DNA of 36,509 bases from a virus. The stretch covers positions 1 to 36,509 of the IMG/VR virus record IMGVR_UViG_3300030451_002253, one strand, 5' to 3'. The notes under the pieces are model-generated. The model was given only the letters and a program-made list of their open reading frames with translations. It had not been told where the DNA came from and did not search any database. Position 1 is the stretch's first letter. Each line of letters opens with the position of its first letter. Both the position numbers and the translations under genes were made by a program. Of the stretch, positions 20,574 through 26,631 are shown one piece after another.

Positions 20574-22153
20574 TAGTAGCACGACAAAGATACAATCGAC
20601 TTACCAATGGTCGTTCGCAGTTCCTTGACACCGCAGTTGATTGTAGTGAATTGACGTTGCCCTATTTAATTAAAGATGACATAAATGGTCCGAATCATAA
20701 GAGGTTAATTACCCCTTGGCAAAGCATCGGAGCCAAAGCGGTTGTGAATTTGAGTGCAAAGCTCGCCCTAGCACTTCTTCCTCCGCAAACAACATTCTTC
20801 AAATTACAAATAAGAGATGACAAGCTTGGTGTAGATCTACCAGCTGAAGTTAGAAGTGAGATGGATCTTTCTTTTTCTAAAATGGAAAGGATGGTTATGG
20901 ATTACGTTAATGCTTCTACCGACAGAGTGATACTTAATCAAGCTTTAAAACATTTAATTGTATCTGGGAATGCATTAATATTTATGGGCAAGGATGGTCT
21001 CAAACATTTTCCCCTTAACCGTTTCGTTGTTAATAGAGATGGAAACGGGAACGTACTTGAGATTGTCACAAAGGAACTTATATCTCGTCAGGTTCTAGAC
21101 GTAGACTTAGAAGAACCAATTCAACCCAACACTGGGATTGATGAAGACAAGTCTGATGAAAATGATGTTGAAGTATATACCTATGTTCGTTTAGAAAACG
21201 GACGTTGGATTTGGCATCAAGAAGTATTCGATAAAATTATTAAAGGAAGTAGGAGTAGTGCTCCTAAGAATACCAGTCCTTGGCTCCCTCTCAGATTTAA
21301 TACTGTGGACGGAGAAGACTATGGACGTGGCAGAGTAGAAGAGTTCCTTGGGGATCTTAAATCTTTAGAAGGTTTGTCTCAAGCATTAACGGAAGGGGCT
21401 AGTGTAGCCTCGAAAGTTTTGTTTCTAGTCAGCCCCTCTTCAACCACGAAACCAAAAACCATTGCCCAAGCTGGGAATGGAGCGATTGTTCAGGGAAGAG
21501 CGGAAGATGTACAAGTAGTTCAGGTAGGAAAGACTGCTGATTTTCGAACAGCATCTGAAATGATTGCTACTTTAGAACGAAGAATTAATGAAGCTTTTCT
21601 TGTACTACAGATTAGACAAAGTGAAAGAACTACAGCAGAGGAGGTACGCCTCACTCAGCTAGAACTTGAGAAACAGTTAGGTGGTTTATTCAGTTTGTTA
21701 ACGGTTGAATTTTTAATACCTTATCTAAATAGAACACTTCACATACTTCAAAGAAATAATCAAATTCCTAAAATTCCTAAAGACTTAGTTAGACCACAAA
21801 TAATAGCTGGTGTTAATGCTTTAGGTAGAGGACAGGATAGAGAAAGCTTGACACAATTCATACAAACTTTGGCTCAAACTATTGGACCAGAAGCAACTAT
21901 GAAGCATGTAGATCCAGCTGAATATATAAAACGACTAGCAGCTGCTCAAGGTATAGATGTTCTAAATCTAATTAAGAGTGATGAACAACTACAGAAAGAA
22001 ATGCAGCAGCAACAAAAAGCAATGCAGCAACAGGAGATGACTAAACAGATGGGTCAACTTGCTAGAGCTCCAATAATGGACCCAAGTAAGAATCCATCAA
22101 TGTTAGAAGAGCAGCCTGAAGCTACAGAAGAACAACCACCTATGGAAGAATAA
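20570..22153 (+). CDS. Portal, head-tail connector (T7 gp8-like)
   Basis: A 527-residue protein (T7 gp8 is 536). Podovirus portal features include RQRYNRLTNGRSQFLDTAVD at the N-terminus, LITPWQSIGAKAVVNLSAKLALALLPP, and the conserved GEDYGRGRVEEFLGDLKSLE. A Gln/Met-rich helix (KEMQQQQKAMQQQEMTKQMG) and an acidic tail follow. The dodecamer forms the DNA entry channel and nucleates the prohead. ATG 20570 overlaps the upstream stop (ATGA), and its stop overlaps the scaffold start. Confidence 0.95.
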   Translation: MIVARQRYNRLTNGRSQFLDTAVDCSELTLPYLIKDDINGPNHKRLITPWQSIGAKAVVNLSAKLALALLPPQTTFFKLQIRDDKLGVDLPAEVRSEMDLSFSKMERMVMDYVNASTDRVILNQALKHLIVSGNALIFMGKDGLKHFPLNRFVVNRDGNGNVLEIVTKELISRQVLDVDLEEPIQPNTGIDEDKSDENDVEVYTYVRLENGRWIWHQEVFDKIIKGSRSSAPKNTSPWLPLRFNTVDGEDYGRGRVEEFLGDLKSLEGLSQALTEGASVASKVLFLVSPSSTTKPKTIAQAGNGAIVQGRAEDVQVVQVGKTADFRTASEMIATLERRINEAFLVLQIRQSERTTAEEVRLTQLELEKQLGGLFSLLTVEFLIPYLNRTLHILQRNNQIPKIPKDLVRPQIIAGVNALGRGQDRESLTQFIQTLAQTIGPEATMKHVDPAEYIKRLAAAQGIDVLNLIKSDEQLQKEMQQQQKAMQQQEMTKQMGQLARAPIMDPSKNPSMLEEQPEATEEQPPMEE

Positions 22154-24507: not shown

Positions 24508-25038
24508 ATGACCTTTATCCCACCATATTGGTACTATACCGAGAGGGTAATCCACCCTAAACCAGAAGTAGATTACGTAATTGATGTTTTCAAGGAGAAG
24601 ATCCCATTAAATCAAAGTAAGAACATCTCTAGTTATAGTATTAATAATCGTCCAGAAGTCATTTGGAGTAAAAGATATAGTGAAATAGTTGAGAATATAG
24701 TTGTTCAACTAGGTTTGCGTAAATCGTTTAACTATAGATATGAATCTTGGGGACAGCTTTACACTAAAGGTTTAGAGCATGATTATCATAATCATACCGA
24801 ATTTAAAGAAACTAACGAAGCTACTATTAGCTTTGTTCACTACATAAAAAATGGTAACGAACCAAATTTTAGATTCATTAATCTAGATACTGATCAAATA
24901 CACATACCAAAACAAGAAGAAGGTGACATATTAATTTTCCCTTCGTACTTATTTCACAAAGTTATTCCAAACAAATCAGATAAAAACCGATTTGTGATAT
25001 CAGGAAATATTGCATTTACACCCCCAAAAATTAATTGA
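24508..25038 (+). CDS. 2OG-Fe(II) oxygenase family protein
   Basis: A 176-residue protein with the pattern of a cyanophage 2OG-Fe(II) oxygenase family: H94-N-H96 (DYHNHTEF), distal H150 in DILIFPSYLFHKVIPN and R161 in NRFVISGNIAF. The usual H-x-D is replaced by H-x-H, as is common in this family, so iron coordination may differ. Substrate unknown. It begins 11 bases after psbA with the same start context (TATTTAAATG), so it is probably co-transcribed with psbA. Its stop overlaps the next TTG start. Confidence 0.78.
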   Translation: MTFIPPYWYYTERVIHPKPEVDYVIDVFKEKIPLNQSKNISSYSINNRPEVIWSKRYSEIVENIVVQLGLRKSFNYRYESWGQLYTKGLEHDYHNHTEFKETNEATISFVHYIKNGNEPNFRFINLDTDQIHIPKQEEGDILIFPSYLFHKVIPNKSDKNRFVISGNIAFTPPKIN

Positions 25039-25376: not shown

Positions 25377-25895
25377 ATGTCAGTAACTGATCCTGAAAAG
25401 GTAGAATTTATTCAGGGTTTAACTAAAGATGTTATTCATGGTAGGAGATTATTTTTTGATCATCTAGTAAATACTGCTGAAGTAGTAGAAAAGTTATGTA
25501 AAGATATTGGCATTAAAGAGAATAGATATTTAATTGATGCGGCACTTTTCCATTCAGTATACGGTACTCATTATTTTGAAAATAAAAATGATACTACTAG
25601 AGAACAGGTTACTCTTTTAATAGGTGAAAAGGCAGAAACATTAGTTAATTTGTTTTGCACTTTACCTGAGAGACAAATTCAAATTCTTCAACATAAGTTT
25701 AAACCAGATCAGATGCAAAGAGATTTGTATATCTTGGAGTATGGGAATACGTTGGAGCAGACTATTTGTGATGTTCGATCAATAGGATATCCAAATCCAA
25801 TATGTATTTTCATTTTGAAATTATTGAGAGCAAATTTAATTGATCATTACAATTTACAGGTTCCACCATTTGAAGAATCTCTAATAGTAAACTAG
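25377..25895 (+). CDS. HD-like protein, DUF6817 pattern
   Basis: A 172-residue all-helical protein whose first half follows DUF6817/HD-type phosphohydrolases: FFDHLVNTAEVVEKL (H29), then LIDAALFHSVYGTHYF (H59, Y62), the 'FHSxYGT' signature. HD proteins cut phosphate bonds in nucleotides or second messengers; some members of this group lack full metal sets, and here I see no clear HD pair, so catalysis is uncertain. It is the last gene of the psbA-linked cassette before the riboswitch-like element. Confidence 0.65.
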   Translation: MSVTDPEKVEFIQGLTKDVIHGRRLFFDHLVNTAEVVEKLCKDIGIKENRYLIDAALFHSVYGTHYFENKNDTTREQVTLLIGEKAETLVNLFCTLPERQIQILQHKFKPDQMQRDLYILEYGNTLEQTICDVRSIGYPNPICIFILKLLRANLIDHYNLQVPPFEESLIVN

Positions 25896-25901
25896 CAACC
25901 A

Positions 25902-25973
25902 CGTCCGTTCATCCTTTATGAGGACGCATGAAACCTAATCATGGAACGGGGATTAGGTATATGGAGATTACCC
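25902..25973 (+). promoter_or_regulatory. Candidate glutamine-II (downstream-peptide) riboswitch
   Basis: A structured leader. CCTAATC (25934-25940) pairs perfectly with GATTAGG (25951-25957); the loop holds GAACG (25944-25948), complementary to CGTTC (25906-25910), giving a pseudoknot. A 5' hairpin is also possible (CGTCC 25902-25906 with GGACG 25922-25926, plus TCAT with ATGA). The Shine-Dalgarno GGAG (25963-25966) follows at once, and GATTA recurs just after it, so TAATC could pair with either copy. CGTTCATCC, GGACG and GGAACGG recall the downstream-peptide motif, which binds L-glutamine and precedes short cyanobacterial and phage frames. Confidence 0.62.
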
Positions 25974-26027
25974 ATGAAAGTAACCTACGTATATCGTGGC
26001 ATTGCTTACACAAAAATAGTTAAGTGA
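25974..26027 (+). CDS. 17-residue YRG peptide under the riboswitch-like element
   Basis: The frame MKVTYVYRGIAYTKIVK has a Shine-Dalgarno GGAG seven bases upstream and ends just before a terminator. The 'M-K-x-x-Y-x-x-Y-R-G-x-x-Y' pattern is that of the small DUF4278-like proteins found in cyanobacteria and their phages, in particular those after downstream-peptide RNAs. At 17 residues it is at the short end of that group. Function unknown; possibly acts on host nitrogen control, which is inference. Confidence 0.6.
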   Translation: MKVTYVYRGIAYTKIVK

Positions 26028-26042
26028 AGCTAAATTCTTTTT

Positions 26043-26075
26043 GGGCTGCAACCATTTCGGTTGTGGCTCTTTTTT
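26043..26075 (+). terminator. Strong rho-independent terminator
   Basis: GGGCTGCAACC (26043-26053) pairs over 11 positions (three wobbles) with GGTTGTGGCTC (26059-26069) around ATTTC, followed by TTTTTT. It closes the riboswitch-peptide unit, so the capsid gene needs its own promoter downstream. Confidence 0.85.
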
Positions 26076-26147
26076 GTTTTATAGAAGGTTTACACGTTCT
26101 ATATCACATGAGAGAAGAGACACCTCAGAGTCGGATCTCTTTTCAAT

Positions 26148-26228
26148 ATGGCTTTTGACCCTTACGAGGATACTCATCAGCCGTCTAGACGGTGGGATAG
26201 ACCACGCACTAAATCGAGTCTTATATAA
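26148..26228 (+). CDS. Possible 26-residue peptide before the capsid gene
   Basis: A short ATG frame, MAFDPYEDTHQPSRRWDRPR and six more residues, in the 220-base gap between terminator and capsid gene. The composition is protein-like and it contains a palindrome CCGTCTAGACGG. No clear Shine-Dalgarno and no known relative; it may be chance. Confidence 0.3.
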   Translation: MAFDPYEDTHQPSRRWDRPRTKSSLI

Positions 26229-26296: not shown

Positions 26297-26404
26297 ATGG
26301 CTAACGCTAATCAAGTCGCTTTAGGTAGAAGTAATCTATCTACAGGTACTGGTTATGGTGGCGCAACCGATAAGTACGCCCTGTATTTAAAGCTGTTCTC
26401 TGGT
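26297..26404 (+). CDS. Major capsid protein, exon 1
   Basis: ATG 26297 starts 36 codons (MANANQVALGRSNLSTGTGY, ending KYALYLKLFSG). This matches the N-terminus of T7 gp10 (GDKLALFLKVFGG) and is followed at once by in-frame stop codons of the intron. The last base is U, which can form the required U-G pair with the intron guide sequence. Exon 1 is missed if the start is sought only in the long frame downstream, which would begin inside the intron at 26611. Confidence 0.88.
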
Positions 26405-26631
26405 AATTAATTTTGCCCACATAAGAAGTGATTCCTATGAATGAATCGGATGAATTGCTGGAAGCCTAAGTCGCAAGATATGGTAATCAGCAGCCAAGCC
26501 TCTTACGCTTAAGAGGAAGGTTCAGAGACTACATGGAGTTCTAAGCGTAGAACGTAATACATGAAAAGCGTCCGACTACTTAATGAGTAGAAGATATAGT
26601 CCGTGCCTTATTGAAAGATAAGGAAAACATG
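26405..26631 (+). ncRNA. Group I intron in the major capsid gene
   Basis: A 227-nt intron. Conserved elements are in order: Q (AATCAGCAGCCAAGCC, 26485-26500), a P6-type stem CCTCTTA/TAAGAGG, R (GTTCAGAGACTA, 26520-26531), hairpins GTTCTA/TAGAAC and CTACT/AGTAG, and S (AAGATATAGTCC, 26591-26602). P7 is GACTA with TAGTC. The guide TTTTGCC (26411-26417) pairs GCC with exon-1 end GGT (P1) and TTTT with exon-2 start GAAA (P10), fixing both splice sites; the last base is G. The extra hairpin after P7 suggests subgroup IA. No internal endonuclease gene. Confidence 0.92.

Follow-up and report, generated by a model that had tools for sequence, protein, structure and literature searches.

The window, by which we mean the whole stretch of 36,509 nucleotides analysed here, is part of a 46,872-base virus record. 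Its genes come in the order phage RNA polymerase, primase-helicase, head-tail connector, T7 capsid assembly protein, psbA and gp10-like capsid, and because of this gene order and the Pfam matches we assign the virus to the T7-like cyanophages; the nearest annotated phage found was Prochlorococcus phage P-SSP7, with ∼81% identity across half of a 9.4-kb query. A riboswitch aptamer, a 17-codon ORF and an intrinsic terminator, all on the + strand, lie between the psbA cassette and the capsid gene, which is where an earlier note on this DNA had placed them. Between psbA and the riboswitch there are also genes for a putative 2OG-Fe(II) oxygenase and a DUF6817 protein (24508-25038 and 25377-25895). 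The major capsid gene is split by a group I intron at 26395-26623 (RF00028, 98.7 bits), and the ORF listed for the capsid with a start at 26611 corresponds mainly to the second exon, the first exon running from near the ATG at 26297.

The earlier note had taken the leader for a glutamine-II (downstream-peptide) riboswitch and had named covariance searches with RF01704 and RF01739 (glnA) as the check. With cmscan, RF01704 matched positions 25903-25958 (+ strand) at full length with 59.1 bits, well over the cut-off of 33 (E 5e-12), all pairs being standard, and the 46,872-base record contains no second copy. RF01739, whose cut-off is 35, reached 17.3 bits, and because of this score we rejected the glutamine-I class for the window aptamer and assign the riboswitch to class II, as proposed. 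The aptamer is built, all on the + strand, from a pseudoknot of CGUUC (25906-25910) with GAACG (25944-25948), a helix P1 (25912-25915 with 25921-25924), a link strand CGCA (25925-25928) and a helix P2 (25933-25940 with 25951-25958). The glutamine-contacting bases of class II are known from the crystal structure of Huang et al. 2019 (PMC6698751), and by inspection all the conserved ligand-site bases in that numbering, namely C1, G2, G18, C39, G40, the long-range pair C19:G41 and A33:G42, are present in the window as C25906, G25907, G25926, C25947, G25948, C25927:G25949 and A25941:G25950. From this family membership we infer that L-glutamine would be the ligand of the window RNA.

Helices P1 and P2 covary among relatives. 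In an alignment of 45 diverse aptamers (A1), 126 cells were changed on both sides compared with 33 in shuffles, many of the sequences being related, so that cell counts do not equal independent events; the covariation score was 0.42 compared with 0.15 in shuffles and was at most 0.11 with the partner slid. The pseudoknot pair is invariant in this alignment because the search pattern had fixed it. A second scan and two isolates gave at least seven phage loci in which a pseudoknot C:G is exchanged for U:A (CGUUU/AAACG), and the pseudoknot is thus supported independently; all 7 of these loci among the matches listed have a YRG ORF behind them.

The Shine-Dalgarno GGAG (25963-25966, + strand) stands 7 bases 5′ of the ATG at 25974, from which 17 codons encoding MKVTYVYRGIAYTKIVK run to the TGA at 26025-26027 (ORF 25974-26027, + strand), and the product is a single YRGxxY unit related to DUF4278 repeats. 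For comparison we used 77 distinct 10-codon cores out of 110 phage loci, among the matches listed. Y, R, G and the later Y are found in 77/77 distinct phage cores; since the ORFs were chosen by Y/F-R-G, the count is free of selection bias for the last Y alone. In-frame pN/pS was 0.46 for the cores and 0.49 for 29 distinct 17-aa forms, compared with 0.98 and 0.91 in shifted frames, and the shifted frames of the 17-aa forms contain stops in 27/29 and 13/29 cases. Judged by these ratios, purifying selection acts on the peptide frame, and the 17-aa YRG peptide claimed in the earlier note is upheld by its ORF, its Shine-Dalgarno and the in-frame value of 0.49. Moreover, the first Tyr codon is TAT in 71/77 cores and the second is TAC in 67/77, a bias which fits a constraint at the RNA level as well. 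No glutamine codon occurs in the window peptide, whose amino acids are kept in relatives; nearly all phage peptides are 13 to 39 aa long.

At the DUF4278 (PF14105) cut-off no Pfam match was obtained for the window peptide, with the query lengthened by four N-terminal residues, and the 34-aa homologue of S-CBP4 scored 21.6 bits against a cut-off of 25.3; the T7-like phage peptide forms that we tried fell below the cut-off or gave no match to DUF4278. Searches of Pfam and PHROGs with the peptides gave matches from the longer phage forms only, mostly weak, to DUF4278 or phrog_5049. At host loci with the RF01704 aptamer, the proteins are of 33-65 aa with mostly two or three YRG units, and two host proteins that were tried matched DUF4278 at 44.2 and 33.1 bits, over the cut-off. 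In its sequence, the phage peptide looks like one unit of the host DUF4278 (YRG) repeat.

A 206-base query found a matching segment in P-SSP7, P-SSP2, P-SSP3, P-GSP1, P-SSP10 and other phages, mostly unannotated; no feature lies under the match in P-SSP7, P-SSP2, P-SSP3, P-GSP1 and others, which agrees with the remark of the earlier note that gene callers overlook the peptide. In P-SSP7, the ATG of the YRG ORF is at position 20592 of AY939843.2 (L122, position 2573). RF01704 was over cut-off in 18/19 loci taken from phage records, and a whole-record search of 17 of these phage records gave one match per genome, 16 of them over cut-off. Among eight further T7-like cyanophage records, SS120-1 has a canonical aptamer (38.9 bits) and S-CBP3 a variant one, and S-CBP2, S-CBP42, P60, Syn5, S-SRP01 and S-B28 gave no Rfam match to either glutamine class. 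The T7-like cyanophage records examined (n=27) hence comprise 19 with a canonical aptamer, 1 with a variant, 1 with a remnant and 6 with neither aptamer class, and because of these 6 the module is not essential. The remnant is that of S-SBP1 (L137, around 2501-2541), where the YRG peptide is kept and the 5′ half of the aptamer is gone (19.6 bits, model positions 25-60); by its sequence, this is a natural loss of the switch. With P1 and P2 covarying and RF01704 above cut-off in 19/27 records, the paired bases are kept in related phages, a point that the earlier note had singled out.

A pattern scan that samples IMG/VR and requires fixed pseudoknot letters, together with isolates and host genomes, provided a set of strict aptamers. 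A short YRG ORF lies behind 127 of the 132 strict aptamers among the matches listed, usually ∼22 bases downstream; in four of the remaining five the contig stops there, and the fifth is probably a false match. When host genomes were scanned with the pattern, matches from outside Prochlorococcus and Synechococcus were mostly due to chance. The T7 capsid gene is downstream of the unit in 79/80 viral contigs with room, among the matches listed, and psbA is absent upstream at 11 loci with room (10 viral contigs and isolate S-TIP28). Therefore, the unit belongs to the scaffold-capsid interval with psbA as a frequent neighbour, and we rejected the tie to psbA that had been read from the window. On the sequence comparisons, the riboswitch-peptide pair is a conserved module of T7-like cyanophages.

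In S-CBP3 (L266, 1695-1743), a YRG peptide is found at the corresponding site behind a variant aptamer, which scores 21.7 bits with class I and 16.1 bits with class II, both under cut-off. Two more scans gave at least 27 distinct variant leaders including S-CBP3, and 27/27 of those listed have a YRG ORF behind them, all on contigs with T7-like capsid-region genes. Four more variant loci gave no match at the Rfam cut-offs, making five scanned in all including S-CBP3. The variant aptamers keep the pseudoknot strands, and P2 closes across them in the class II manner; this P2 is supported by covariation, with one subgroup pairing one column off. Because GACGGG stands with GGAACGCG in these aptamers, C19:G41 of class II is replaced by G:C, and the variant thus joins a long-range G:C pair, which is a feature of class I, to a topology which is that of class II. 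From its sequence, we regard this aptamer variant, under both Rfam cut-offs at the five loci scanned, as probably new here.

The terminator of the window (26043-26079, + strand) consists of a stem-loop at 26043-26069, with an 11-bp stem and a 5-base loop, and a T-rich tail, that is, the G+C-rich hairpin and following U run of an intrinsic terminator, and it folds with −16.8 kcal/mol and a z of −6.1, no shuffle being equal. A terminator was found behind the peptide in 6/115 relatives, on which ground we rejected it as a core part of the unit; in sequence terms, it is a feature of the window's own lineage. Hence, of the three-part unit of riboswitch, peptide and terminator described in the earlier note, the terminator itself is real and its membership does not hold.

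Farther downstream, a separate structured RNA element (26112-26206, + strand) consists of a hairpin with the loop CACCTCAGAGTCGGA and then a core at 26148-26206 (model R1), which ends in the palindrome CCGTCTAGACGG and TGGGATAGACCAC (alignments A2 and A3). The R1 core covaries, with 67 double-change cells compared with 26, and in 13/15 genomes searched it has a single match with E below 1e-5, which lies ahead of the capsid gene; an Rfam search of the element gave no match. The element at 26112-26206 is outside the riboswitch unit and is a second conserved RNA leading the capsid gene, which we likewise regard as probably new here. In some phages (L131 3742-3812, L050, L071 and many A2 loci), the hairpin 5′ of the R1 core is swapped either for a tRNA-like sequence which is apparently complete and which in NATL1A-7 is annotated as tRNA-Gly, or for a T-arm-like hairpin. 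These replacements suggest that the mRNA of the capsid gene is preceded by a processing site of the tRNA type.

In relatives of the window, the 5′ flank of the aptamer pairs with the Shine-Dalgarno and start region or with the Arg-Gly-Val codons, forming an outer helix, P0. In the window itself, P0 is a possible helix of 5 bp in a weak form, CCACG (25899-25903, + strand) with CGUGG (25995-25999, Arg-Gly codons), four of whose five pairs are included in the MFE fold of the leader; in relatives it has up to 12 bp. We compared best-helix scores with those of swapped flanks and shuffles, and the mean was 16.5 in short-peptide phages (swapped 14.4, sd 0.25; shuffled 12.6) and 14.3 in long-peptide phages (swapped 12.3, sd 0.31), where relatedness stays in the swapped-flank control and several leaders are near copies. 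The helix is strong in 26/26 distinct variant leaders (20.2 compared with 13.3 for swapped flanks, sd 0.74, highest mean 16.1) and in all 26 covers the Shine-Dalgarno or the start region, whereas none was seen in 14 host-type leaders (mean 11.1, swapped 11.8). The P0 partner in part tracks the wobble base of the Gly codon, with GGC/G 21 times, GGT/A 14 times and other combinations 36 times. In one phage group, P0 is UUCGUAC/GUACGAA and takes in the first pseudoknot base, and because of this shared base P0 and the pseudoknot cannot both form fully there. This outer helix, added by phage leaders and absent from the compared host leaders, is to judge from the alignments also new here.

The aptamer almost certainly controls the 17-aa peptide, as far as sequence can tell. 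We give a probability of about 0.7 to the reading that the element is a class II glutamine riboswitch which is glutamine-ON for a 17-aa YRG micropeptide acting in trans on host nitrogen metabolism; of this reading, the sequence analysis itself establishes the aptamer class, the intact ligand-contact bases, the conserved helices, the selected frame and the tight coupling of aptamer and peptide across the phage group. Without glutamine, the ribosome site and first codons would be paired, by a start-region hairpin in the window and by P0 in many relatives; L-glutamine would bind the leader aptamer, the pseudoknot and P2 would form, and the start region would open to switch the peptide ON. The peptide would most likely act in trans, mimicking a single repeat of the glutamine-regulated DUF4278 proteins of the host, and may act on the target of these proteins and so alter the nitrogen metabolism of the infected host. 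In the predicted ligand-free fold of the window, the start region including the Shine-Dalgarno pairs with peptide codons and P2 is broken, with a z of only −1.5. When the pseudoknot bases were blocked, mean accessibility of the start region went from 0.49 to 0.51 (29 up and 2 down, n=113), a small and nearly neutral effect with only a weak ON tendency. According to a passage in a review (PMC6316151), glutamine activates expression with the class II aptamer of Prochlorococcus, and Huang et al. suggest that the ribosome site is released in class II (PMC6698751).

The direction in phages could differ from that of the tested host switch, because P0 was not detected in the tested host group. Because P0 is phage-specific and could act oppositely, the main rival to glutamine-ON is that glutamine turns the peptide OFF, with the ligand-folded aptamer joining the flanks and P0 shutting the start region. 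P0 does enclose the aptamer, much as a closing stem does in many OFF switches, it lies over the Shine-Dalgarno or start region in every distinct variant leader and it is missing from host leaders. However, the UUCGUAC/GUACGAA helix competes with the first pseudoknot base, the ligand-free fold predicted for the window pairs the start region and breaks P2, and the tested Prochlorococcus switch is ON in the passage of the review cited above; we therefore consider OFF control rather unlikely. Glutamine-ON control of a peptide acting in trans also has to be weighed against a mere leader function, in which translation of the peptide would control the terminator or the capsid gene in cis and capsid synthesis would follow glutamine. 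The fixed site upstream of the capsid gene in 79/80 listed viral contigs with room and the terminator directly behind the window ORF fit such a leader, but with a terminator in only 6/115 relatives, conserved amino acids and no glutamine codon in the window peptide, up to four ORFs between peptide and capsid in Tangaroavirus, and a conserved, independently structured RNA element ahead of the capsid gene, we find it improbable.

Control of the capsid gene by the riboswitch is thus unlikely, because the terminator is unconserved, some phages have further genes in between and a separate leader RNA precedes the capsid gene. The link that the earlier note drew between virion-block expression and host nitrogen finds no support here, the peptide being the only ORF between switch and terminator in the window and several genes lying between peptide and capsid in some phages. 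Comparable host loci exist, and S-SBP1 retains only part of the aptamer, as might be expected of a remnant that was carried along from a downstream-peptide locus of the host and has no function in the phage; yet structure and frame are conserved over many phage genera, with compensatory changes and pN/pS below 0.5, which makes such a remnant very improbable. For the group as a whole, it seems fairly probable that T7-like cyanophages keep a fixed-site glutamine sensor for a one-repeat DUF4278 mimic, with switch forms of their own (P0 and the G:C variant).

Weinberg et al. 2010 (PMC2864571) described the downstream-peptide motif from 634 RNAs of cyanobacteria and marine metagenomes, with ORFs of 17 to 100 aa, and their table gives cyanophage for the manA motif and not for the downstream-peptide motif. 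The present element shares with RF01704 of Weinberg et al. 2010 and Huang et al. 2019 the aptamer sequence, fold, ligand-contact bases and a short ORF directly behind, but belongs to T7-like cyanophages and to one fixed genomic site; the phage ORF has a single YRG unit where host-type loci have two or three, and compared with the 14 host-type leaders many phage relatives add the outer helix. In the open-access papers searched, we found no report that assigns class II to T7-like cyanophages. Host DUF4278 proteins (PMM1846; IF17/gifB N-terminus; PMC6316151) and the Yfr6 peptide (PMC2518516, PMC2864571) likewise have the YRGxxY repeat and are controlled by glutamine riboswitches, but the host DUF4278 proteins are longer and mostly multi-repeat, whereas the phage peptide is a single unit below or outside the Pfam model. 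These one-repeat phage copies may help to find the DUF4278 target of picocyanobacteria. The most abundant photosynthetic cells are the hosts for which P-SSP7 and its relatives serve as model phages. With a ligand that is known, a leader of 110 bases and a peptide that a change in one codon would knock out, the unit offers a direct test of infection-time nitrogen sensing.

Other phage-borne glutamine riboswitches are the glnA RNA of T4-like cyanophages (PMC9964418) and the glnA-like riboswitch with tmRNA of the marine methylophage Melnitz (PMC9004378), but both differ from the present one in aptamer class, phage group and genes, the window carrying class II alone. In other viral contigs, some with T4-like cyanophage genes, we found a class I riboswitch before a two-YRG protein, and this protein is also present in cyanomyovirus isolates; therefore, glutamine sensing and YRG proteins are coupled in two unrelated phage groups. 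Viral contigs frequently carry class I aptamers (CGTTCATC...GACGGAAGTAG...GGAACGC; L386-L505) ahead of a wide variety of short ORFs; some of these ORFs contain YRG units, others (such as MTKYQSRLFIRAVKKSL or MNRFDHLHKTYREAK) contain none, and the aptamers also occur as tandem pairs.
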